From a virus: a stretch of DNA of 27,552 nt. The position numbers and the translations under genes are program-made. Where the stretch lies: positions 1 to 27,552 of the IMG/VR virus record IMGVR_UViG_3300042891_000672; one strand, 5' to 3'. Below, piece by piece: positions 5,361 to 26,975 of the stretch. The notes under the pieces were generated by a model, which had not been told where the DNA came from, searched no databases, and saw only the letters and a list, made by a program, of their open reading frames with translations. The stretch's first letter is position 1, and each line of letters starts with the position of its first letter.

Positions 5361-5825
5361 ATGATAAAACTAATTAACTTAATCAAAGAAATTCTTACTG
5401 AAGAATTTGAACAGAAGAAAAAAGTAACAGGTAGAAGATTTATTCCTCAAGTAACAATATTACCTGCTGAGACTAAAGATCAATTTAAAGAACATTTTAA
5501 GTTAGTTAAAAGTGCCGATGGTGAGTATAGATTGTATATTAGTACATTCCTTAAAGATGCTTTAGAGTCATTAAGTAGAGGTCGTACTAGTCGTGATACT
5601 CAAAAAAGATTATCACCATTAGCTAAAATGGTATCTGAAAGAATGCCTCAAGAAATTAGAGGATTACTTAAAAAATATTCTGAAAAATTAAACTCAGGAT
5701 TACAAATGTATTCAATCAATACTAAAATTAAAGAAGTAACCCCAGAAGGTGACATAGTATTTTACAACCCAGGTAATAAAGCAATGGCTAGTAAGGCATT
5801 TGATCCAACTATTACAGAAGAATAA
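5361..5825 (+). CDS. Putative capsid-targeted internal protein (154 aa, unknown function)
   Basis: The first 14 residues, MIKLINLIKEILTE followed by E, form a short amphipathic leader ending in a hydrophobic-x-Glu site (LTE). This is the pattern shared by many proteins of this window and resembles the T4 capsid-targeting sequence cut by the prohead protease. The remainder is charged and mostly helical (ETKDQFKEHFKLVKSADGEY, SPLAKMVSERMPQEIRGLLK) and ends DPTITEE. No known fold was recognised. The start at 5361 is supported by the leader itself and by the A-rich context. It follows the structural operon and precedes a GIY-YIG-like nuclease by 5 nt. Virion localisation is inference. Confidence 0.65.
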   Translation: MIKLINLIKEILTEEFEQKKKVTGRRFIPQVTILPAETKDQFKEHFKLVKSADGEYRLYISTFLKDALESLSRGRTSRDTQKRLSPLAKMVSERMPQEIRGLLKKYSEKLNSGLQMYSINTKIKEVTPEGDIVFYNPGNKAMASKAFDPTITEE

Positions 5826-6328: not shown

Positions 6329-6877
6329 ATGACAAAAATACTAAACGAGCAATTCAATAGAATGCAAAAATTAGCAGGTTTAATTACTGAAAATAAAATT
6401 AGTGAAGAAACCCTAAACGAAAACAGATACAGAGCATCAGATTTCCCTGAAGTAACTGGATTTGAAGAAGATAATAATGAAGCAATCATTACTTTCTCTG
6501 ACGGTACTAAAGATGTAGTTGGACCAAGAAATTTTGCTAATAAAGAAGCAGGATATACTAAGTTCCTTGAGTTATTAAATACTATGGGTACCGATTCTAA
6601 AGCTAAACAAGCGGTAAGTGATTTCTTAGAAATTAAAAAATTCAATGTACTTAGTACAAGTGATATTAATAAACTTTTAGCTGACAATGGTGTAGATGAA
6701 GAATATTTCTCAGCTATGGGTGGTAAAGAAATTGAAGGAGGAACAGAGACATGGATAGATATAATAGAAGATATTATAGGTAAACCATATGACTCCAACA
6801 ACATCAGTAAAAAGGATGATATGAAAATACAAACATTCATGAATCATCTAAGCCGTTTAGGTATTGAAGTAGTATAA
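6329..6877 (+). CDS. Putative capsid-targeted internal protein with RMQKLAGLITE leader (182 aa)
   Basis: The N-terminus contains FNRMQKLAGLITE, almost the same as KRMQQLAGLLTE at the start of the protein at 12473, although the two proteins are otherwise unrelated. This points to an exchangeable leader with a predicted cut after ITE (residue 21). The mature part has a small beta segment (EAIITFSDGTKDVVGPRNFA) that could bind DNA or protein, then helices (KAKQAVSDFLEIKKF, SDINKLLADNGVDEEYF). No catalytic motif was recognised. The gene ends 11 nt before a strong terminator, so it is the last gene of its transcription unit. The start is fixed by the leader and the AATAAC-ATG context. Confidence 0.65.
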   Translation: MTKILNEQFNRMQKLAGLITENKISEETLNENRYRASDFPEVTGFEEDNNEAIITFSDGTKDVVGPRNFANKEAGYTKFLELLNTMGTDSKAKQAVSDFLEIKKFNVLSTSDINKLLADNGVDEEYFSAMGGKEIEGGTETWIDIIEDIIGKPYDSNNISKKDDMKIQTFMNHLSRLGIEVV

Positions 6878-8680: not shown

Positions 8681-9505
8681 ATGATAAAACTTGTAGAACT
8701 GTTAAAAGAGATATCCCAAAATAAAATGGTGATCATGGCTGGTGGAGCAGGCGCTGGGAAATCATATCTTCTTAATAATATTAAATCAAAAGTACCTGGT
8801 GTTAAAATTCTTAATCCTGACACTTATGTTGAGGATAAAGACAGTCCAATGTATAATAACTTAACTAAAGCATCATCTCAAATTGATGATGTAGATGTAC
8901 CTAATGCTATAGCTAGTGGTGAATCATTTATTTGGGACACAACAGCATCTAATGCTGCTAAAATGTTAGGTGGAGAATATCGCCGTAAACAAGTAAAAGG
9001 TATATTAAACACAGAAGGTTATGATGAAATGATGGTAATGGTTTATACACACCCTATAGTATCATTTTTACGTAATTTTAAACGTGAACGTAAAGTACCT
9101 ACAGTAGGTGTATTATCAACATGGAACAATGTTTATGGTAATATAGAGGCATATAAAAATAAATTAGGTGATAATTTTATATTATACCAAGCACCTGATA
9201 AAGAATATCAAAAACAAATTGATGAATTTAATGAGGCTGCTAAAAATAATAAATTAAAAGAATATTTTGAAAATCTATTATCATCAGGTGAGTTCAGATC
9301 AACATTTAGAAAAGATAAACCTGAACCTCAAACACCAGAAGAAATAGAAAAAGCTGAGAAACAGAAAGCACAGTCTAAAGCATTGGTTGATGCTCAAATA
9401 GATAAACTTGAAAAAGAGTTTATGAATATTGAAAACAAAGTTAAAGACTCAGTCATAACAGATGAAAATGAAGTAATAAATAAGGTAGTTAATTTTATAA
9501 AATGA
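8681..9505 (+). CDS. Zeta-toxin-like P-loop kinase with capsid-targeting-like leader (274 aa)
   Basis: I place the start at ATG 8681 rather than an in-frame upstream ATG at 8645 that lies inside the terminator hairpin. From 8681 the protein begins MIKLVELLKE, the same leader class as the genes at 5361, 18251 and 18948. A Walker A motif GGAGAGKS (residues 21-28) follows directly, then LNPDTYVEDKD, SFIWDTTASN and an RERKVPTVGVLSTWNNVY block. These resemble the Zeta-toxin/polynucleotide-kinase-like group of P-loop kinases, which phosphorylate sugar nucleotides or nucleic-acid ends. The C-terminal 70 residues are a charged helical tail. It overlaps the next gene by 4 nt. Function (toxin, nucleotide kinase or RNA-end kinase) is open; the leader suggests virion packaging. 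Confidence 0.7.
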   Translation: MIKLVELLKEISQNKMVIMAGGAGAGKSYLLNNIKSKVPGVKILNPDTYVEDKDSPMYNNLTKASSQIDDVDVPNAIASGESFIWDTTASNAAKMLGGEYRRKQVKGILNTEGYDEMMVMVYTHPIVSFLRNFKRERKVPTVGVLSTWNNVYGNIEAYKNKLGDNFILYQAPDKEYQKQIDEFNEAAKNNKLKEYFENLLSSGEFRSTFRKDKPEPQTPEEIEKAEKQKAQSKALVDAQIDKLEKEFMNIENKVKDSVITDENEVINKVVNFIK

Positions 9506-11070
9506 GTTTAGGCAAATATATAGCAGAAATAATAATTGAACCTACCCCTAAAAAAGTAGCTTTATACCCAGGAGCATTCAAACCACCTCATAGAGGCCAT
9601 TTTGAATTAGTACAACGTTTATCTAAAGTAGCAGATGAAGTACTAATAGTTATTTCACCTATTGCTCGTGATGGAATAACAGCTCAACAATCTCTATCAG
9701 CATGGAAATTGTATTTACCTTTATTACCTAAAGCTAAAGTTATTATATCAAATGTAGCTTCACCTGTATCATATGTTTATGATTATATTAAATCAAACCC
9801 ACAACAAGACATAGTGGTAGCATTTGGAAAAGGTGAAGAAGAACGTTATAAAGCGCTTTTAAACAAAGAAAAATACTCTAATGTTAAAGTATATGATGCT
9901 GGTAATATAGATGATTTAAGCGCGTCTAATTTACGTAATGCTATTAATTCAAACAACCCAGCTGAAATAGCTAAATTCTTACCTCAAGATATTGAAGTAG
10001 CAGATTATGTGAATGCATTAGGTATAAACTTAAGAACCGAACCTCCATTTAATTCAATAGCTGAAGAAGGTTCATTGGTTAAAAAAGCAAAAACACCTAA
10101 AGGACAATTTCTTAAAAACTGGGGTATTGATATGTATGCTCTTGAATTAGCTAGAGGATTAGAAGAAAACACAACTCCAGACTTAACATTTGATCAAGCA
10201 TTAACTAGTTTAACTCAATACTTTGTAAAACAAGGTTTTCCTGTTAATCCATTACCTAAAGTTATTATTAATGATAAAGACCAAGAAAATGCTTCTAAAC
10301 TATTAGGTAAAACTGCTTATTATGATCCTAATAAAAAAGAAATAACATTATTTACATTAGGTAGACATCCAAAAGATATATTACGTTCTTTTGCTCATGA
10401 AATGATTCATCATATTCAAAACATGAAAGGTCAAATTCATGATGTAGATACTACTGACACAACATCAAATGATTATTTAAGTCATCTTGAACAAGAAGCA
10501 TATACTCAAGGTAATATGACTTTTAGAAACTGGGAAGATAAAATAAAAAACAATAAGGTTATGAATGAAGAAAAAGAAAAATCAAAATACACAATATTCT
10601 GTGATATGGATGGTGTGTTAGTTGATTTTGATAAGGGTTATGAAGATTTAACTGGTTTACATACTAAACATGCTGATGTACAAGACAATAAAGTTTTTTG
10701 GAATAAATTTAAACAAAGTTTAGGCGATAAAAACATGACTGAATATGATTATTGGGCTAAATTAGATTGGATGCCTGATGGTAAAGAATTATGGAAGTAT
10801 ATAAAACAATATAACCCATACATTCTTACAGCTCCTTCATTAAACCCAGAATCTAAAGAAGGTAAAAAAGCCTGGGTGACTCGTTTAGACAATATGAAAA
10901 ATATATATTTTAGACCTGCTCAATATAAGTCTGATTTTTCAAATGAAAATCGTATACTTATTGATGATAGGGCTGATACTATTGAAAGATGGAACGCTAA
11001 AGGTGGTATTGGTATTTTACATACTTCAGCTGCTGATACAATTAAACAACTTAAAAAATTAGGACTATAA
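9502..11070 (+). CDS. Three-domain fusion: nucleotidyltransferase, HExxH metallopeptidase-like, HAD phosphatase
   Basis: Residues 1-13 (MSLGKYIAEIIIE) look like a leader with a hydrophobic-x-Glu end. Residues 18-175 are a cytidylyltransferase/NMN-adenylyltransferase-like domain: YPGAFKPPHRGH (HxGH, His 30 and 33) and the C-terminal SASNLRNAI motif. Residues about 195-345 contain FAHEMIHHIQN (HExxH, His 299 and 303) and LEQEAYTQGN, whose Glu is a plausible third zinc ligand. Residues 363-522 form a HAD domain: IFCDMDGVLVDFD (nucleophile Asp 368), the LTAPS motif and ILIDDRAD. The HAD part resembles 5'(3')-deoxyribonucleotidases. Possible protease sites (SIAE-E, VMNE-E) lie exactly between the domains. 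Substrates are unknown; nucleotide, NAD or RNA-end metabolism are the reasonable options. Confidence 0.8.
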   Translation: MSLGKYIAEIIIEPTPKKVALYPGAFKPPHRGHFELVQRLSKVADEVLIVISPIARDGITAQQSLSAWKLYLPLLPKAKVIISNVASPVSYVYDYIKSNPQQDIVVAFGKGEEERYKALLNKEKYSNVKVYDAGNIDDLSASNLRNAINSNNPAEIAKFLPQDIEVADYVNALGINLRTEPPFNSIAEEGSLVKKAKTPKGQFLKNWGIDMYALELARGLEENTTPDLTFDQALTSLTQYFVKQGFPVNPLPKVIINDKDQENASKLLGKTAYYDPNKKEITLFTLGRHPKDILRSFAHEMIHHIQNMKGQIHDVDTTDTTSNDYLSHLEQEAYTQGNMTFRNWEDKIKNNKVMNEEKEKSKYTIFCDMDGVLVDFDKGYEDLTGLHTKHADVQDNKVFWNKFKQSLGDKNMTEYDYWAKLDWMPDGKELWKYIKQYNPYILTAPSLNPESKEGKKAWVTRLDNMKNIYFRPAQYKSDFSNENRILIDDRADTIERWNAKGGIGILHTSAADTIKQLKKLGL

Positions 11071-12472: not shown

Positions 12473-13120
12473 ATGGAACAATTTAAAAGAATGCAACAAT
12501 TAGCTGGTTTACTTACTGAAGGTATGGCTGCGTACGAATATGAAAAAGGTAAAGAAGCTGGTGAAAAAGCTGAAAAGAAAAAAATGAAAAAATCTGAATT
12601 AAAAAAACAGATTAAAGAAATGATCTTAGCTGAGATAGATATTGATTTATCTAACACTGATAGTTTTTATGACCCAGTTTATGAAGCTAAGAAAAAGAAA
12701 AAAGACGAAGAAGAAGTAGAAATATCAGCCACTGAAGAAATCCCAGCTGGTGAAGAAACACCTATTACTGAACCTACTTCACCATCATATGATGTTCAAA
12801 AAGAATTAATGGACGCATTAAACGCGGCTAAGTCAATCGGTGATGAAAAATTAGTTCGCCAAATTGGTAATGCGTTAACATACTTCACTCGTACACAAGT
12901 AGCTAAAGAAGAAAATCCACCTGCAATGAAAGAAGCATTAAGTATGGATGCTATGGAACGTATGGAAGGATTAGCTAATATACAAGATTTATATATCTTT
13001 AAAAAGAAACTCAACGCATTAACCTTAGATTGGACGCAAGACGGATTTGAGAAAGAAGATATTATTGAATATATATCTGAACTTATTAATCAGAGTACTA
13101 CACTTAATTATATAAAATAA
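12473..13120 (+). CDS. Putative capsid-targeted protein with two leader-like segments (215 aa)
   Basis: Begins with FKRMQQLAGLLTE (predicted cut after Glu 16), near-identical to the leader of the gene at 6329. A second leader-like stretch, MKKSELKKQIKEMILAE (residues 38-54), matches the other leader class seen at 17141 and 17536. So this protein carries both types in tandem, separated by a very Lys/Glu-rich linker (EKGKEAGEKAEKKK). An acidic Thr/Pro-rich linker (about residues 78-105) follows. The C-terminal half (YDVQKELMDALNAAKSIGDE, LVRQIGNALTYFTR) is a helical domain I do not recognise. It could be a scaffold or core component as well as cargo. It is followed 5 nt later by the H1-like gene. 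Confidence 0.65.
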   Translation: MEQFKRMQQLAGLLTEGMAAYEYEKGKEAGEKAEKKKMKKSELKKQIKEMILAEIDIDLSNTDSFYDPVYEAKKKKKDEEEVEISATEEIPAGEETPITEPTSPSYDVQKELMDALNAAKSIGDEKLVRQIGNALTYFTRTQVAKEENPPAMKEALSMDAMERMEGLANIQDLYIFKKKLNALTLDWTQDGFEKEDIIEYISELINQSTTLNYIK

Positions 13121-16018: not shown

Positions 16019-17128
16019 ATGAATAACATCAAAAAAATAATTAAAGAAATTATACAACAACGTAATCTTAAAAAAGATTGTGGTTGTGGATGTAATGGTA
16101 AATGTGGAAAAAATGAGGCACCAATGTTAAATGAAAATTTAACACACAAGTCTTTAATTAGTGAACACATGCAATATCATATTGATAATAAATTGGCTCT
16201 TACCGAAAATACATTTCGTTATGGATCTACATCATTCCTTAATTTATGGAAAGAAGCCAGAAAATTATACTCACGCAACTTACTTGAAGTATCAGGTTTA
16301 GATAAAGATATAATAGTTGAAACTAATTTAGGTGAATACGGTATATATGAAGGTCAAGAAGTACCATTAGATTTACCTATGATTGAAGAAGGTCAAATGT
16401 TAGATAACTATGAAGTTGATTTTTTTCATACTAAAGCTAATGTATATGCTAATATAGAAATACCTAGTGAAAATCCAACATTTGAAGATGATCTTCAAAT
16501 AAAAGGAATAGGTAAAACTGAAGAAGAAGCATTTGAAGATTTAAAACAAAATTACAATAATTACAAGAAAACAGGAATAAATGAAGCTGAGTATGATTTC
16601 AATATCAATAAGGTATGGGATTTTATAGAATCACGACCATTTAATAATCCTAATTATATGCCCAAATTTAGCACAGCTAAAGAAATATGGGATGAATGGG
16701 GAGATAAAGAAAAACAATTATATAGTGATTTCCAATGGGAAGATAAATATAATGGTCAATTACACCCTAAAGAAAAAGCTAATCTTCAACGTAGAAAAAA
16801 TTATGATACTTTAGCAGGAATAAACGAAGCTGAATACCAAGGTAAAGATGTTCAACTTAATAAACCTAAACGTGGTGGATCTAAAAAATTCTATGTTTAT
16901 GTAATGGATCCTAAAACTAAACGTGTTAAAAAAGTATCATTTGGAGCTGCAGGTGGAGGTCAAAACTTAGCAGTTAAAATTAGAGATCCTAAAGCACGTA
17001 GAGCATTCGCTTCACGTCAAAACTGTGATAAGAAAAAAGACAGAACAAAACCCGGTTACTGGAGTTGTAACATAGGCAGATATTGGAAATCATTAGGTGG
17101 CGGTTCAAATTTTAGCGGATATTGGTAA
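16019..17128 (+). CDS. Putative internal virion polyprotein with repeated protease sites (369 aa)
   Basis: Begins with the helical leader MNNIKKIIKEIIQQ, then a cysteine-rich knot CGCGCNGKCG (residues 21-30) that could bind metal. Along the chain several segments end in hydrophobic-x-Glu: MLNE-N (36-39), LISE-H (46-49), ALTE-N (60-63), and two copies of INE-AEY (187-192 and 268-273). Those two match the T4 prohead-protease rule (I/L)xE-A well. Two aromatic/acidic regions follow (WDFIESRPFNNPNYMPKF, EIWDEWGDKEKQLYSDFQW). The C-terminal 90 residues are basic (GGSKKFYVYVMDPKTKRVKK, KIRDPKARRAFASRQNC, RTKPGYWSCNIGRYW), a domain I recall from marine phage and other large-virus proteins. Probably processed into several internal peptides; this is inference. 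Confidence 0.65.
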   Translation: MNNIKKIIKEIIQQRNLKKDCGCGCNGKCGKNEAPMLNENLTHKSLISEHMQYHIDNKLALTENTFRYGSTSFLNLWKEARKLYSRNLLEVSGLDKDIIVETNLGEYGIYEGQEVPLDLPMIEEGQMLDNYEVDFFHTKANVYANIEIPSENPTFEDDLQIKGIGKTEEEAFEDLKQNYNNYKKTGINEAEYDFNINKVWDFIESRPFNNPNYMPKFSTAKEIWDEWGDKEKQLYSDFQWEDKYNGQLHPKEKANLQRRKNYDTLAGINEAEYQGKDVQLNKPKRGGSKKFYVYVMDPKTKRVKKVSFGAAGGGQNLAVKIRDPKARRAFASRQNCDKKKDRTKPGYWSCNIGRYWKSLGGGSNFSGYW

Positions 17129-17535: not shown

Positions 17536-17886
17536 ATGAAACTATCAGAATTAAAACAACATATTAAAGAAGAATATTCATCAGCTTCAAAACTGTATGA
17601 AATCGATGGTATCATAGTTATTGATACTGACGTAGCATTCCATAAACAAATTATGTCAGATATTCGTGCTATTAAAGGTGTAACAATTGTTAAAGATTAT
17701 ATTTATGAACCAGTAGGTGCTGCTGAAAATAGAGGATATGCTGAGTTAAGTATTAAAATAGATCCATCACCATTTGAAAATAGTGATCCTAAAGTTATTA
17801 CTAATACCGTAATTAGAGATATTAAAGCAACTAAAGGTGTACGCGCGTTTAAATTAAAACAAGGACCTAGTCTAACCACAGTATAA
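17536..17886 (+). CDS. Putative capsid-targeted small protein with ferredoxin-like pattern (116 aa)
   Basis: The leader is MKLSELKQHIKEE followed by Tyr; its last segment lacks a strong hydrophobic residue two before Glu, so the cut site is less certain. The remaining 100 residues show a beta-alpha-beta pattern twice (GIIVIDTDVAFHKQIMSDI, GVTIVKDYIYEP, YAELSIKIDPSP, KVITNTVIRDIKATKGVRAF), suggesting a small ferredoxin-like fold. No catalytic residues were recognised. Overlaps the next start by one base (TAATG), implying coupled translation with the basic cysteine-rich protein. Confidence 0.6.
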   Translation: MKLSELKQHIKEEYSSASKLYEIDGIIVIDTDVAFHKQIMSDIRAIKGVTIVKDYIYEPVGAAENRGYAELSIKIDPSPFENSDPKVITNTVIRDIKATKGVRAFKLKQGPSLTTV

Positions 17887-18254
17887 TGGATTTACGTAAA
17901 TTAGTTAAAGAAGTATTAAACGAACAGAAAGCAAAACGTGACAGATGTTTACGTATTGCTGACCGTAAGTTTGATAAACCATCTGCTTATAAATCAGGTG
18001 CTGTAGTTAGATGCCGTCAAGGTAAAATATGGAAAGGCCTAAAAGAAGACGAATCACTTCATAAATGGTTTAAACGTCAAGGTACACCAGGTAAAGAAGG
18101 TGGATGGGTAGATTGTAATACTTGTAGAGACGGTAAATGTAAAGCATGTGGTAGAAAAAAAGGTGAAAAACGTGCTAAATACCCTTCATGCCGTCCAACA
18201 CCAGCACAATGTAAACAACCAGGTAAAGGTAAAAAATGGGGGAAAACAAAATGA
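17886..18254 (+). CDS. Tagged basic cysteine-rich protein (DUF5872-like), 122 aa
   Basis: The leader is MDLRKLVKEVLNE (predicted cut after Glu 13). The rest is strongly basic with seven cysteines. The C-terminal part (LHKWFKRQGTPGKEGGWVDC, NTCRDGKCKACGRKKGEKRA, KYPSCRPTPAQCKQPGKGKK) closely follows a domain I remember as DUF5872, known from marine phages and giant DNA viruses (KWVD...CGRKKGE...YPxCRPT). The N-terminal half (CLRIADRKFDKPSAYKSGAV, VRCRQGKIWKGL) is another short basic block. The cysteines may bind zinc; DNA binding is likely from charge. Overlaps the previous and following genes by 1 and 4 bases. Confidence 0.7.
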   Translation: MDLRKLVKEVLNEQKAKRDRCLRIADRKFDKPSAYKSGAVVRCRQGKIWKGLKEDESLHKWFKRQGTPGKEGGWVDCNTCRDGKCKACGRKKGEKRAKYPSCRPTPAQCKQPGKGKKWGKTK

Positions 18255-18955
18255 TTAAGTTAATAGATTTATTAATTGAAATAGGTGTAGATCTATCTAA
18301 TTATAAAGGACAGATATTAAAAGGAGATGTTGTCCGAGCACCTAAAAATTTTCCATTAAGTGGAGAAAAACTTGATAAATCATTATCCCTTAAAGTGACT
18401 AAGATATCTAGAGAAGGTGTTAATAGATATAAATTATCTTTAGAAGATACTAAAACAGGTAAAAAATATACAATTAGAAACTATCAAATGGATGGTGAGT
18501 ATAAAGGTAAAAAATTACCTAAATGGGGTTTGGTAAGAAAATCTAAAGAAAATACTAAAGAAGCATCTAATCCACAAGCAGGAACAGCCATACCTTATGG
18601 ATCAGGATTTGCTCCTGTAAAAGAAACTAAAAGAATACCTCGTAAATCAGGTCAACCTGCTAAATCAAGTAAACATTCTGATCTTTATACAGATGAAGAT
18701 CCTAAAGGAACTATTACTGGTTTAGGTTTTAAAGATGCTGCTACAGCTAAACAAGGTATATCTAAAATAAATAAAGCTAAAACAACTCATGCTCATAAAG
18801 TACAAGCCACTTTAGTGATGAAACAAAGAGCAAAAGTAGCTATAGAAAGAACTAAAGATCCTGAAAAGAAAAAGAAATTAAAATCTGCTTATCAGATTTG
18901 GTCTAAAAAATTAGAACAATTAAAGCGTAAAACTAAACGATTAAAAAATGATTAA
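18251..18955 (+). CDS. Tagged basic protein with C-terminal HSDLYTDEDPKGT domain (234 aa)
   Basis: I choose ATG 18251 (ATGA overlap with the previous stop) over the in-frame ATG at 18236. From 18251 the protein opens with MIKLIDLLIE, the leader class of 5361, 8681 and 18948. Residues about 15-100 are a beta-rich segment (ILKGDVVRAPKNFPLSGEKL, YKLSLEDTKTGKKYTI) that resembles small nucleic-acid-binding barrels, but this is a guess. The C-terminal 95 residues (SKHSDLYTDEDPKGTITGLG, FKDAATAKQGISKINKAKTT, HAHKVQATLVMKQRAK) match a domain I recall as widespread in marine phages and some bacteria, of unknown function. The end is very basic (KRKTKRLKND). It overlaps the superoxide dismutase gene by 8 nt. 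Confidence 0.65.
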   Translation: MIKLIDLLIEIGVDLSNYKGQILKGDVVRAPKNFPLSGEKLDKSLSLKVTKISREGVNRYKLSLEDTKTGKKYTIRNYQMDGEYKGKKLPKWGLVRKSKENTKEASNPQAGTAIPYGSGFAPVKETKRIPRKSGQPAKSSKHSDLYTDEDPKGTITGLGFKDAATAKQGISKINKAKTTHAHKVQATLVMKQRAKVAIERTKDPEKKKKLKSAYQIWSKKLEQLKRKTKRLKND

Positions 18956-19649
18956 ATTAACAGATATATTAAAAGAAGTATCTAAAGAAAAAATTCAACG
19001 TTTAGAAAAAACAAACAATGAGCAAAAACAAGATATAAAATTTAAAGTACCAAAATTAAATTATTCATATACTTCTCTTCAACCTTATATAGATAAGGAA
19101 ACTATGGAAGAACATTTTGATAAACATTTTAAAGGATACACAGATAAACTTAATGCTGAATTAGATGAAAAATCTATCAGAGTAAATGCTGAAGATCAAA
19201 CCCAAGCTATTCAAATAATATTAGGTAAATATCCTAAAAATGATATTATTAGAAATAATGGTGGTGGTTTTTATAATCATGTCTTGTATTTTGAAAACAT
19301 TACACCCGACTATAAGGCACCTTCAACTAAATTTAGAAAAATGTTAGAGGAAAACTTTAAGTCATTTTCTGAATTTAAAGAACAATTTAAAGAAGCTGGT
19401 TTGAAACAATTTGGTTCGGGTTGGGTATTTTTAATTAAAAAAGGAAATAAATTAGTTATAGAATCTTATCCTAATCAAGATAATCCATATTTAGATAAAG
19501 ACTTTAAAGGTAAAATTTTAATTGCTATGGATGTTTGGGAACATGCTTATTATTTAAAACACAAATCCCAAAGAGGAAATTATATTAATGATTTTTTTAG
19601 AGTAGTAGATTATAAAGTAGCAGAAGAAAGATTAGAATTATTAGATTAA
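18948..19649 (+). CDS. Mn-type superoxide dismutase with capsid-targeting-like leader
   Basis: Residues 1-10 (MIKLTDILKE) are the shared leader, then a charged linker to about residue 33. The dismutase follows: YSYTSLQPYI, METMEEH-type helix with His 56, second-sphere Tyr 64, NNGGGFYNHVLYF with His 111, FGSGWVFLIKK, PNQDNPYL, and MDVWEHAYYL with Asp 195 and His 199. All four metal ligands are present. The Gly-Gly before the second His and the Gln in PNQD are the manganese-type pattern. The enzyme converts superoxide to hydrogen peroxide and oxygen. A normal dismutase has no such 30-residue N-terminal extension. The gene overlaps a tagged gene by 8 nt. If packaged, the enzyme could protect the virion DNA or counter a host oxidative response. 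Confidence 0.88.
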   Translation: MIKLTDILKEVSKEKIQRLEKTNNEQKQDIKFKVPKLNYSYTSLQPYIDKETMEEHFDKHFKGYTDKLNAELDEKSIRVNAEDQTQAIQIILGKYPKNDIIRNNGGGFYNHVLYFENITPDYKAPSTKFRKMLEENFKSFSEFKEQFKEAGLKQFGSGWVFLIKKGNKLVIESYPNQDNPYLDKDFKGKILIAMDVWEHAYYLKHKSQRGNYINDFFRVVDYKVAEERLELLD

Positions 19650-20688: not shown

Positions 20689-21169
20689 GAATATATTTTA
20701 TATTAATGAAGACCCAATTATAGCGGCGAGAGAATTAGCAGATGATCATATTCGTAAAATGCAAATTGAGTCTGCACAAATGTTGTGTACTACTTTTTGG
20801 CATTATGGTCGTTGGGCTCCATATAAAAAATGTCATTACAATCATCCATCAACTAAATGGACTAGAGAATCAAGTAGTCATTTTGATTGGCTATTAGAAC
20901 ATGGTTTAGAAATATGTGAAGAGTTTAGTAAACGTTATGGTAAACCACATGCCACTAAACAGACATTATTATGGTTACAAGTAAATAAAAGTGTTTTAAA
21001 TGGATTATTTCCAACTAATTCTTTTACTCCTCCACCACAATGTATGCCTGATGAATATAAGGAATTAAATACTTTGGAAGCTTATAAAAAATTTTATATA
21101 TTAGATAAAGTAGGTGTTAAAAAACTAAATTGGAATAAATTAAATAATAAACCAGAATGGATAAAATAG
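20687..21169 (+). CDS. Pyrimidine-dimer DNA glycosylase-like phage protein
   Basis: The protein opens MNIFYINEDPIIAARELADD, then HIRKMQIESAQMLCTTFWHY, YNHPSTKWTRESSSHFDWLL and EFSKRYGKPHATKQTL. This is the pattern of a common phage family annotated as pyrimidine-dimer DNA glycosylase or endonuclease-V-like (from memory: MNIFYLDxDPxxCAxxHxDKHVxKMxxExAQLLSTA...HPxxxWxRxSxxNYxWL). Such enzymes repair ultraviolet damage by removing the dimer base and cutting the strand, useful for a marine phage. I have not verified the catalytic residues, so the activity is less certain than the family. It follows a terminator and a palindromic element, so it may open a transcript. It overlaps the FAD gene by 13 nt. 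Confidence 0.65.
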   Translation: MNIFYINEDPIIAARELADDHIRKMQIESAQMLCTTFWHYGRWAPYKKCHYNHPSTKWTRESSSHFDWLLEHGLEICEEFSKRYGKPHATKQTLLWLQVNKSVLNGLFPTNSFTPPPQCMPDEYKELNTLEAYKKFYILDKVGVKKLNWNKLNNKPEWIK

Positions 21170-22488
21170 TAATCATAGGAGCAGGTGTAGCAGGTATTAA
21201 TGCCGCTACCAAATTAGTAGACAATGGATACCCAGGTGAATTAATCACTATTATTGACAAAGGAAACGACCCACACAATCGTTTACCTGAGGAAGTAATG
21301 ACAGGTATGTTAGGTGCTGGTGGATGGAGTGATGGTAAATTAACATACCATACAGCAATTGGTGGTCAATTATCAAAATATTGTGGTGAAGAAAAAGCAA
21401 TGGATTTAATGAAACAAGTAGTAGATAACTTTACTCGTTTCCATCCTAAACCAGAAGAAATATTCTGTTCTGATCCACAGGAAGAACCTGAGTTTATTAA
21501 ACCATATTTTGGATTACGTATGTTTCCTGTATGGCATATTGGATCTAATTTCCTTCACGAGATCGCTAAATCATGGTATCAATACTTGTTAGATAAAGGT
21601 GTTGAATTTCATTGGGGAACTGAAATAATTAAAATTGATTTTGACAATGATGGTGATCCTTTATTTACTGGAGGAACATGCTATGGTAAATGGATAGATG
21701 AAAATGGAGAACATTTCGATACTCATCATTATGATACTCTTATATTCGCTGTAGGCAAATCAGGTATTGATTTTGCTCAAAAATTGTCAGATGATTATAA
21801 ATTACCTACAGAACCAAAATCAGTACAAATTGGAGTTCGATTTGAAGCACCACAAAAATACTTCCAGAAATTAATTGATGTATCATATGATTTTAAGCTT
21901 TATCAAAAGTTTGACAATGTATCATTACGCTCATTCTGCACTAACAATAATGCAGCTTATGTAGCAGTAGAAGAAACATATGGTGATATTACATACAATG
22001 GTCATGCTAAGAAAGGTGAAGAATTTAGAAACGATATGACTAACTTTGGTATCTTAATGGAAATCAAAGGTATTGAAAATCCATTTGAATGGTCAAGAGA
22101 TGTTGTTAATAAACTACAAGTTGATGGTAAAGGATTATATTACTCACCTAACAACACACGCACTCCAGGTATAACATCAGAAGGTAATATTGTAAGTGCT
22201 TATCAAATAGATGATTTAGAAGACTTTGATAAAGTATTAGGTAAATACGCTAACTATATTATTAATTTTATTGAAAATATGGATGAAGTATTTGGATTTG
22301 GTGATGATTTTGGAATTTATATACCTGAAGTAAAATATCTTTCACCAGAACCTCTTGTTAACTATAAAAACTTAGCATTAACTGATTATCCAAATGTACA
22401 TTTTGTTGGTGATGCTTTAAGTGCTCGCGGAATTACAGTGTCAGGAGCGCAAGGAATATATGTTGCTGAATATTTATTGACAAAATAA
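21157..22488 (+). CDS. FAD-dependent oxidoreductase (COG2509-like)
   Basis: The N-terminus has the dinucleotide-binding motif IVIIGAGVAGINAATKL (GxGxxG) and an acidic residue at the end of the second strand (IIDKG). The segment MLGAGGWSDGKLTY and the end VHFVGDALSARGITVSGAQG (the FAD-binding GD motif) fit the FAD-dependent dehydrogenases of COG2509, as I recall them. TLIFAVGKSGIDFAQKL is the usual second nucleotide-site strand. The partner substrate is not visible. Length (443 aa) is near that of the family without its N-terminal extension. Such an enzyme is unusual in a phage. It overlaps the upstream repair gene and precedes the DUF6884-like gene by 4 nt, so all three are probably cotranscribed. 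Confidence 0.8.
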   Translation: MDKIVIIGAGVAGINAATKLVDNGYPGELITIIDKGNDPHNRLPEEVMTGMLGAGGWSDGKLTYHTAIGGQLSKYCGEEKAMDLMKQVVDNFTRFHPKPEEIFCSDPQEEPEFIKPYFGLRMFPVWHIGSNFLHEIAKSWYQYLLDKGVEFHWGTEIIKIDFDNDGDPLFTGGTCYGKWIDENGEHFDTHHYDTLIFAVGKSGIDFAQKLSDDYKLPTEPKSVQIGVRFEAPQKYFQKLIDVSYDFKLYQKFDNVSLRSFCTNNNAAYVAVEETYGDITYNGHAKKGEEFRNDMTNFGILMEIKGIENPFEWSRDVVNKLQVDGKGLYYSPNNTRTPGITSEGNIVSAYQIDDLEDFDKVLGKYANYIINFIENMDEVFGFGDDFGIYIPEVKYLSPEPLVNYKNLALTDYPNVHFVGDALSARGITVSGAQGIYVAEYLLTK

Positions 22489-24825: not shown

Positions 24826-25383
24826 TTGAAATTAAAAATAGAATATATTATCATAGCCCTACTTGTCGTTGCTTTATTTTTGCAACGACAATGTTCTTCT
24901 CCTGATGTAGTTGAAAAAGTAACAACTGAAATCAAATATGATACTATCAATAAACAAACCTCAGTATATGTTCCTAAATGGAATACTCGCACTGAGGTAA
25001 ACATAGATACTTTCCTTTCTCCTGTAGATAGCTTGGCTATATTAAAAGAATTTTATACCTTATATAACTACATAGATACAGTAGGAACAGATAGTGTTAA
25101 GATTGTTATTAATGATAGTGTAACAACAAATAAAATTATAGCTAGACAAGTAGATTATAAAGTGATATATCCAACAGTAACTATAACCAAAGAAAAATTT
25201 GTGAAAGAAACACAATATTATTATGGTCTTAGTTTAGGAGGTAGTAAAGAAGGTTTTGATTATGTAGGTCCAGAACTTTTGTTAAAAACAAAAAGTGACA
25301 AAGTGTATGGCCTTGGTGTTGGCATCAATAACGACCTATCTCCAGTTATAAACTTTAGAACATACTGGAAAATAGGTAAGTAA
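24826..25383 (+). CDS. Membrane-anchored protein, possible spanin-like or DUF6549-like (185 aa, TTG start)
   Basis: The only in-frame start near the beginning is TTG 24826, 2 nt after the previous stop. The N-terminus KLKIEYIIIALLVVALFLQR is a single transmembrane segment, then QCSSPDVVEKV. The outer part is acidic and helical in the middle (DSLAILKEFYTLYNYIDTVG), and its last 50 residues are beta-rich (YYYGLSLGGSKEGFDYVGPE, VYGLGVGINNDLSPVINFRT). Anchored proteins of this shape are common near terminase and lysis genes of Bacteroidetes phages. I recall a similar family as DUF6549, but cannot confirm. An i-spanin-like lysis role is possible. A perfect 10-bp hairpin lies in the DNA coding for the transmembrane segment. 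Confidence 0.6.
   Translation: MKLKIEYIIIALLVVALFLQRQCSSPDVVEKVTTEIKYDTINKQTSVYVPKWNTRTEVNIDTFLSPVDSLAILKEFYTLYNYIDTVGTDSVKIVINDSVTTNKIIARQVDYKVIYPTVTITKEKFVKETQYYYGLSLGGSKEGFDYVGPELLLKTKSDKVYGLGVGINNDLSPVINFRTYWKIGK
24863..24891. repeat. Perfect 10-bp hairpin inside a coding region
   Basis: TTGTCGTTGC (24863-24872) and GCAACGACAA (24882-24891) with a T-rich 9-nt loop. It lies early in the membrane-protein gene, 40 nt after the previous stop, and could attenuate transcription or be an mRNA structure. Confidence 0.6.
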
Positions 25384-26975
25384 TGAGTCAAGACTTAAAA
25401 GAAATAATAAAACAAGAATATATAAAGTGTGCCCAAGACCCAGCACATTTTATGCGTAAATATTGTTATATTCAACATCCACAACGTGGTCGAATAATTT
25501 TTAATTTATATCCATTTCAAGGTAAAGTATTAAATTTATGGCGTGATAATCCATATTCTATAGTACTTAAATCACGTCAATTAGGTATTTCAACATTAAC
25601 TGCTGGTTATTCTTTATGGTTAATGTTATTCCATAAAGATAAAAATATACTATGTTTAGCTACAACACAAGAAACAGCTAAAAATATGGTTACTAAGGTA
25701 AGATTTATGTTTGACAACTTGCCTTCTTGGTTAAAAATACCTTCAGTTGAAAATAATAGGTTAAGTTTAAAATTATCAAATGGCTCAACAATAAAAGCAA
25801 AATCATCAAATAGTGATGCCGCACGTTCAGAAGCAGTATCATTACTAATAATTGATGAGGCAGCATTTATTGATAATATAGATGAGACTTGGGCTTCTGC
25901 ACAACAAACCTTAGCTACTGGTGGTGGCGCAATTGTATTATCTACACCTTATGGTACTGGTAATTGGTTTCATAAGATGTGGGTAGCAGCTGAATCATCA
26001 ACTGATGATGGGTCAGGTAAAAAATTCTTACCTGTTAAATTACCTTGGTACGTTCACCCAGAACGAAATGAATTATGGAGAAAACAACAAGATGAATTGT
26101 TAGGTGATCCTAGATTAGCAGCCCAAGAATGTGATTGTGACTTTACTACATCAGGTGATGTTGTTTTTTATCATGAATTTTTAGAATTTTATGAGAAAAC
26201 ATATGTAAAAGAACCTATTGAAAGAAGAGGAGCAGATAAAAATCTTTGGATATGGGAACCAGTAGATTATTCTCGTCAATATATGGTTGTAGCTGACGTA
26301 GCTAGAGGAGATGGAAAAGACTATTCAGCCTTCCATGTTATAGATATTGAATCAAACACTCAAGTAGCTGAATTCAAAGGACAGCTTTCAACAACTGAAT
26401 TCGGTCATTTATTAGTTGGTATAGCCTCAGAATATAATGAAGCATTATTAGTGATTGAAAATGCTAATATGGGATGGGCTACAATACAAACTGTAGTAGA
26501 AAGAGGATATAGAAACCTATATCATTCACCTAAAAGTGAGAAAGCAGAGGCTTCTACGTATTTTGATAAGTACGGAAACAATGACAATTTAACACCTGGT
26601 TTCACAAACTCATTAAAGACCAGACCTATGGTTATTAATAAGTTTAGAGAATATGTGAGTGAAAGAAGTGTTGTTTTTCAATCTAAACGATTAATAGAAG
26701 AGATGAAAGTATTTGTTTGGAAAAACGGAAGAGGTGAAGCACAAACAGGTTATAATGATGACTTGGTAATAAGTTTTGGTATTGGACTATATGTTAGAGA
26801 TACAGCGTTACGTTTTAGTGAAAATGGAACTCAACTCTCAAAATCAATTTTAAATAGTTTTACAAAAACATCATATAATTCCGCTGTATATTCAGCTAAT
26901 AACAACTATTCTCCCACTAAAAATTGGGATATGGATGTAAACGGTTCAAAAGAAAACATTAAATGGCTATTATAA
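25383..26975 (+). CDS. Large terminase subunit (T4 gp17-like)
   Basis: The ATPase part carries a Walker-A-like loop LKSRQLGIST (residues 62-71), a coupling segment ILCLATTQETAKNMV, Walker B LLIIDEAAF (154-162, Asp 158 and Glu 159) and the LSTPYGTGN motif after it. The nuclease part carries MVVADVARGDGKDYSAFHVI (Asp 305), VIENANMGWATI and, near the end, NDDLVISFGIG, the expected metal-binding acidic residues of an RNase-H-like fold. It cuts concatemeric DNA and pumps it into the prohead through the portal. Unlike T4 (SRQLGKTT), the usual lysine is replaced by Ile and Lys 63 precedes the loop, as in the lambda-type deviant P-loop. Length (530 aa) is normal. The start overlaps the previous stop by one base. 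The portal gene follows. Confidence 0.95.
   Translation: MSQDLKEIIKQEYIKCAQDPAHFMRKYCYIQHPQRGRIIFNLYPFQGKVLNLWRDNPYSIVLKSRQLGISTLTAGYSLWLMLFHKDKNILCLATTQETAKNMVTKVRFMFDNLPSWLKIPSVENNRLSLKLSNGSTIKAKSSNSDAARSEAVSLLIIDEAAFIDNIDETWASAQQTLATGGGAIVLSTPYGTGNWFHKMWVAAESSTDDGSGKKFLPVKLPWYVHPERNELWRKQQDELLGDPRLAAQECDCDFTTSGDVVFYHEFLEFYEKTYVKEPIERRGADKNLWIWEPVDYSRQYMVVADVARGDGKDYSAFHVIDIESNTQVAEFKGQLSTTEFGHLLVGIASEYNEALLVIENANMGWATIQTVVERGYRNLYHSPKSEKAEASTYFDKYGNNDNLTPGFTNSLKTRPMVINKFREYVSERSVVFQSKRLIEEMKVFVWKNGRGEAQTGYNDDLVISFGIGLYVRDTALRFSENGTQLSKSILNSFTKTSYNSAVYSANNNYSPTKNWDMDVNGSKENIKWLL

Follow-up and report, generated by a model that had tools for sequence, protein, structure and literature searches.

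Known systems of head cargo and packaged dismutases

The internal proteins of bacteriophage T4 (IPI, IPII, IPIII and Alt) carry an N-terminal propeptide of about 10 residues that ends in L/I-x-E, the motif after which the gp21 prohead protease cleaves (PMC9026906, a review of T4 head assembly). Residues 1-10 of IPIII are enough for packaging; targeting by this capsid-targeting sequence (CTS) depends on residues 4 and 7 and processing on residues 8 and 10, and both the internal proteins and CTS-GFP fusions reach the host interior (PMC9026906). Packaging and delivery have also been predicted for the multidomain polyvalent proteins of phages and conjugative elements (PMC5512222), in a paper from which the word 'superoxide' is absent.

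Outside the phages, a virus is already known to carry a superoxide dismutase (SOD) in its particles: chlorovirus PBCV-1 packages a Cu/Zn SOD (A245R), and superoxide accumulation is lower in cells infected with PBCV-1 than with a virus that has no SOD gene; the passage on this enzyme mentions no CTS or prohead-protease route (PMC7019647). This enzyme has an unrelated fold and belongs to a eukaryotic virus, but it means that a dismutase in virions would not be entirely without precedent, whereas the preliminary description of the present locus called a phage that injects a dismutase a new idea. In the part of the literature covered, no phage SOD is described as a virion component bearing a tag of the kind set out below.

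The DNA analyzed here (the window) is a complete virus record of 27,552 bases, a genome fragment that ends before the head block; the SOD and the leader-bearing genes discussed below are all on the plus strand. The SOD resembles the T4 internal proteins in starting with a propeptide that is about 10 residues long and closes with L/I-x-E, in the gp21-type protease and gp23-type capsid of the phage group, and in a tag that is common to unrelated candidate cargo; it differs from them in that the predicted cargo is a redox enzyme, that the leader is similar in pattern but not letter by letter, and that some relatives encode the cargo as fusion proteins.

A complete Mn-type dismutase

The gene at 18948-19649, the ATG of which (at 18948) overlaps the 3' end of the upstream gene, encodes a 233 aa precursor that, judged from its sequence, is a complete Mn-type SOD; none of the four metal ligands is missing, and the protein is predicted to be a working enzyme. 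The catalytic core, delineated by Pfam, alignment and structure match, occupies residues 31-230 (19038-19637). Both domains of the PF00081/PF02777 family scored above the Pfam cut-off (Sod_Fe_N at residues 31-118, 1.4e-19; Sod_Fe_C at residues 126-228, 1.2e-30), and the top PDB sequence match was the Clostridium difficile SOD, 3tjt (1.5e-47). The ligands named in the preliminary description, His56 (19113-19115), His111 (19278-19280), Asp195 (19530-19532) and His199 (19542-19544), were confirmed and are invariant in an alignment of 24 phage SODs, as are many active-site neighbors, despite wide divergence; by-eye alignment places Gly107 and Gln177 at the Mn-type positions Gly77/Gln146 of E. coli MnSOD. 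The AlphaFold2 model, with 19 phage sequences as input, has a mean pLDDT of 85.3, a mostly confident core and a low-confidence helix at residues 4-25, and Foldseek ranked 3tjt first for it (TMt 0.87, E 1.3e-18). The fold, the metal ligands and the Gly77/Gln146-type signature are those of the bacterial SodA family (PF00081/PF02777), but the N-terminal leader of the phage protein, with its protease site, is absent from the cellular relatives. No family matching the SOD was found in PHROGs, and scans for promoters and terminators gave signals no better than those in shuffled sequence.

A CTS-like leader conserved among phage SODs

The first 10 residues of the SOD (18948-18977), MIKLTDILKE, with L4, I7, L8 and E10, end in L/I-x-E, and conservation together with the T4 CTS rule predicts a cut after Glu10. 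The T4 CTS, MKTYQEFIAE, which forms the N-termini of IPII and IPIII (the latter taken from NC_000866), is of equal length, with hydrophobic residues at positions 4, 7 and 8 and Glu at position 10. A single IMG/VR scan yielded 51 relatives of the window SOD. In an alignment of 19 standalone phage SODs, some no more than 48% identical, E10 forms an invariant column and L8 an almost invariant one. The starts of standalone relatives, with a slash at the predicted cut, include MIKLTDILKE/V, MIKLINLLTE/V, MITLLEILKE/A and MIKLLDLLTE/A, as well as MKLMSILTE/A, MIKMSDILLE/A, MKIKDILFE/Q and MKLSKLILE/N.

That the leader is foreign to ordinary dismutases, as proposed originally, is borne out by its occurrence in 0 of 79 usable cellular SODs, mostly from Bacteroidota (80 loci were sampled, one of which had no usable ORF). 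Most of these proteins start 4 residues ahead of the catalytic core; some of the longer N-termini resemble signal peptides or those of lipoproteins, or may reflect the choice of a start codon too far upstream, and an L/I-x-E string alone, outside the leader pattern, is present in two. The charged linker, which had been put forward as a further distinguishing mark, fared less well: it is present in the window SOD as residues 11-30 (18978-19037), but it is not conserved, the stretch between leader and core differing by almost 20 residues in length among phage SODs and most of it being missing in close relatives (for example, L007: MIKLLDLLTEAKDTKFK).

Leader-like N-termini on other genes

A plain count of [LIV]xE at residues 4-22 was no more than suggestive (18 of 35 genes vs 9.4 +/- 2.5 for internal positions); N-termini were therefore scored with a profile derived from SOD leaders and compared with internal windows, with thresholds at 99% and 99.9% of these windows. 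Four genes of the window exceed the 99.9% threshold, namely, that of the SOD, for which the score is circular because its leader was in the training set, and three others. A 159 kb relative (G001) was scored with a profile built from the SOD leaders of other phages, its own being excluded; only 4 of its 224 genes exceed the 99.9% threshold, and each of them is located at 40.8-48.1 kb, immediately ahead of the terminase. Besides that of the SOD, they comprise one nucleotidase-like gene and two of unknown function. Hence the leader is common to unrelated cargo-candidate proteins in both genomes.

In the window, the gene adjacent to that of the SOD (18236-18955, with an internal ATG at 18251) starts with MIKLIDLLIE, and the C-terminal part of its product recurs as a domain of SOD fusion proteins. 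Leader-like N-termini above the 99% threshold are encoded in the next gene upstream (17886-18254, MDLRKLVKEVLNE) and at 16019-17128 (MNNIKKIIKEII), and an unknown protein (5361-5825) with the leader MIKLINLIKE is above the 99.9% threshold. A zeta-toxin-like kinase recognized by Pfam and by the leader profile (8681-9505, MIKLVELLKE) has a relative that is one domain of a fusion protein (L012, below). The following gene (9502-11070) encodes a fusion of a cytidylyltransferase-like domain with a 5'-deoxyribonucleotidase that starts with MSLGKYIAEII; these domain kinds, too, occur in SOD fusion proteins.

SOD as a domain of large fusion proteins

Five relatives (L008, L009, L011, L012 and L013) have the SOD as a single domain within proteins of 1,014-1,602 aa, and many of the remaining domains have counterparts among the standalone genes of the window and its relatives. 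An [LI]xE site is present within 12 aa on each side of the fused SOD in all five proteins (10/10 flanks; the chance per random 12-aa window is about 0.10-0.13), although the statistics are weakened because the fusion proteins share ancestry and the 10 flanks are non-independent. More generally, strict sites fall within 15 aa of 21 of the 41 domain boundaries vs 7.2 +/- 2.4 for shifted sites, none of 5,000 shifts reaching the observed value. In one case, the homology between a standalone gene starting MIYLKKLVTE/GRYDS and the L008 protein joins at NLME/GRYDT. Pfam also detects plastocyanin/azurin-family copper domains in L008 (residues 826-910, 6.8e-14) and L009 (residues 663-746, 4e-16) and a zeta-toxin-like kinase domain in L012. 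Compared with polyvalent proteins, these fusions have L/I-x-E sites in the linkers, and their domains also exist as separate leader-bearing genes. In a further relative (L036, 7542-8612), the SOD is fused behind another leader-bearing protein and retains its own leader, MKMSDILLE, inside.

Phage affiliation and head genes

The T4-type large terminase subunit of the window (25383-26975, + strand) is the start of the packaging/head block, which continues in a relative (L065). It is 60% identical to the terminase of Flavobacterium phage immuto (NC_055915), and the closest cellular SODs are mostly from Bacteroidota; the virus is a marine T4-like phage, the host of which probably belongs to the Bacteroidota. 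Immuto, the closest cultured relative found, has the same head gene order, leader-bearing genes and an NMN-adenylyltransferase-like fusion; the module is present, and the SOD is absent among the annotated genes of the stretch examined.

Because the window ends before the head block, the protease was sought in relatives. A gp21-type protease (PF03420) was detected in 9 of the 22 SOD records, with E values from 2e-36 to 6e-30; one of these is a contig (G022) that encodes an SOD 100% identical to that of the window, with the gene order SOD, terminase, portal, core proteins, protease and PHROG matches for the head maturation protease (1.2e-55) and the portal (5.8e-61). In longer relatives, the block runs on into a scaffold-like gene and then the Gp23 capsid gene. 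Gp23 was found in 7 of the 7 leader-bearing or fused SOD records tested and in 0 of 8 with a leaderless or divergent SOD, although several of the latter records are short; no control genome matched in the leaderless search, after which the model was checked on the leader-bearing records (7/7 positive). In these phages, L/I-x-E helices are likewise found at the start of the scaffold protein and of small core proteins. A FAD/NAD-binding oxidoreductase-like gene is located close to the SOD (21157-22488 of the window), with similar-looking genes near the SOD in L062 and L063.

Leaderless phage SODs and phylogeny

The leader is absent from the SODs of L043, L045, L047 and Vibrio phage 2.275.O. The preliminary description had held that related phages with an unextended and solely cytoplasmic enzyme would speak against virion cargo; L043 and L045 are such cases in part, but they are short contigs with a different head module, and T4-type Gp23 was not found on them. 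The SODs of L043 (1522-2121) and L045 (5-622) are a few genes from head-type genes of another kind, so that the proximity of SOD to head genes recurs without the tag; phrog_11320 is near both, and phrog_1623, a virion structural protein, is near the former. In the 'phages' collection, every SOD match is less than 60% identical and many are unannotated; the match in Bacteriophage sp. contig405706 has host-like metabolic neighbors, and those of Vibrio phage 2.275.O and Pseudomonas phage Callisto lie among topoisomerase or chaperone genes. The divergent Callisto SOD (L082, 2965-3513), which adjoins clpS and a small heat-shock gene, starts with MNDSIKKYISIAEAASS and contains an I-A-E-A string. In the phylogenetic tree, which is arbitrarily rooted and has rough support values, a branch (92/91) sets the cellular SODs apart, the fused phage SODs are intermingled with the leader-bearing ones, and the leaderless L043 and L045 are found among the phage sequences.

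Predicted packaging of the SOD and alternative explanations

We infer a route that comprises prohead targeting, cleavage, ejection and a benefit to the phage. The SOD would be made as a precursor, residues 1-10 of which would act as a T4-type CTS docking on the scaffold core; a gp21-type prohead protease would then cut after Glu10 (I-L-K-E/V), and the mature enzyme would then lie in the head alongside the packaged DNA. In some relatives, the protease would excise the SOD from a long cargo polyprotein, given that L/I-x-E sites flank the SOD on both sides. It appears likely that the SOD is carried in the virion after being directed to the prohead and cut behind E10, and the virion-cargo proposal of the preliminary description is well supported at the sequence level, by the leader, the protease, Gp23 and the flanking sites. 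Its further ideas, that the enzyme is injected and protects DNA or blunts an oxidative response of the host, are more speculative. The tagged SOD would follow the precedent of the T4 internal proteins, with a redox enzyme as cargo. At infection, the SOD would probably be delivered with the DNA, but we consider the chances of its ejection into the host to be about even. An SOD dimer is bulky for the tail tube, so that it might remain behind in the head or need to be unfolded for passage. The leaderless phage SODs and the absence of an annotated SOD from the examined stretch of immuto also count against the proposed route. The benefit would consist in superoxide removal within the particle or during the first minutes of infection.

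The simplest alternative, an ordinary cytoplasmic auxiliary SOD that is made late and protects the infected cell, the leader being a chance N-terminal helix, is compatible with the existence of the leaderless phage SODs listed above and with the fact that dismutase activity would be beneficial in any location; it is nevertheless improbable, given the invariance of E10 and the lack of the leader in cellular SODs, the same leader on unrelated neighboring proteins and the paired sites that bracket fused SODs. Still less probable is a structural role in the scaffold core, with enzyme activity incidental: the N-termini of the scaffold and small core proteins would fit such a role, whereas invariant ligands and active-site neighbors across wide divergence argue for a working enzyme. 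A more serious contender, albeit one that we consider somewhat unlikely, is that packaging and trimming take place but the SOD is then retained, shielding the packaged DNA and proteins outside the cell without injection. It draws on the same packaging evidence as cargo delivery, on the size of the dimer relative to the tail tube and on the virion SOD of PBCV-1; the entry of T4 internal proteins and CTS-GFP fusions into the host, and co-cargo domains (cytidylyltransferase-like, nucleotidase, kinase) that make more sense inside a cell, favor delivery.

Under the delivery reading, T4-like phages of marine bacteria would bring a ready antioxidant enzyme along with their DNA, and if the SOD arrives in this way, phage metabolic genes can act ahead of phage gene expression. 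Virion cargo of uncultured phages would then be predictable from sequence by the rule that hydrophobic residues precede L/I-x-E in the leader, and the fusion proteins would represent polyproteins of head cargo that are matured by the phage protease. Tentatively, the lineage could be one that packages and injects redox and metabolic cargo (SOD, in some cases with a plastocyanin-like domain), encoded as tagged genes or a protease-cut polyprotein, and thereby controls early oxidative chemistry.

A second class of leaders

Some genes encode a second class of leaders, typically LNEQFxRMQKLAGIITE, in which the string RMQKLAGII is common to the C-termini of scaffold proteins; a variant of this string ends all six scaffold-like proteins examined. 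In the window, such leaders are found on two unknown proteins, at 6329-6877 (LNEQFNRMQKLAGLITE, with the motif common to scaffold C-termini) and 12473-13120 (MEQFKRMQQLAGLLTE). Others are located at 97.8, 104.3, 104.6 and 136.2 kb in G001, at 16879 in L063 and at 16676 in L078. The second class may represent a second docking tag.
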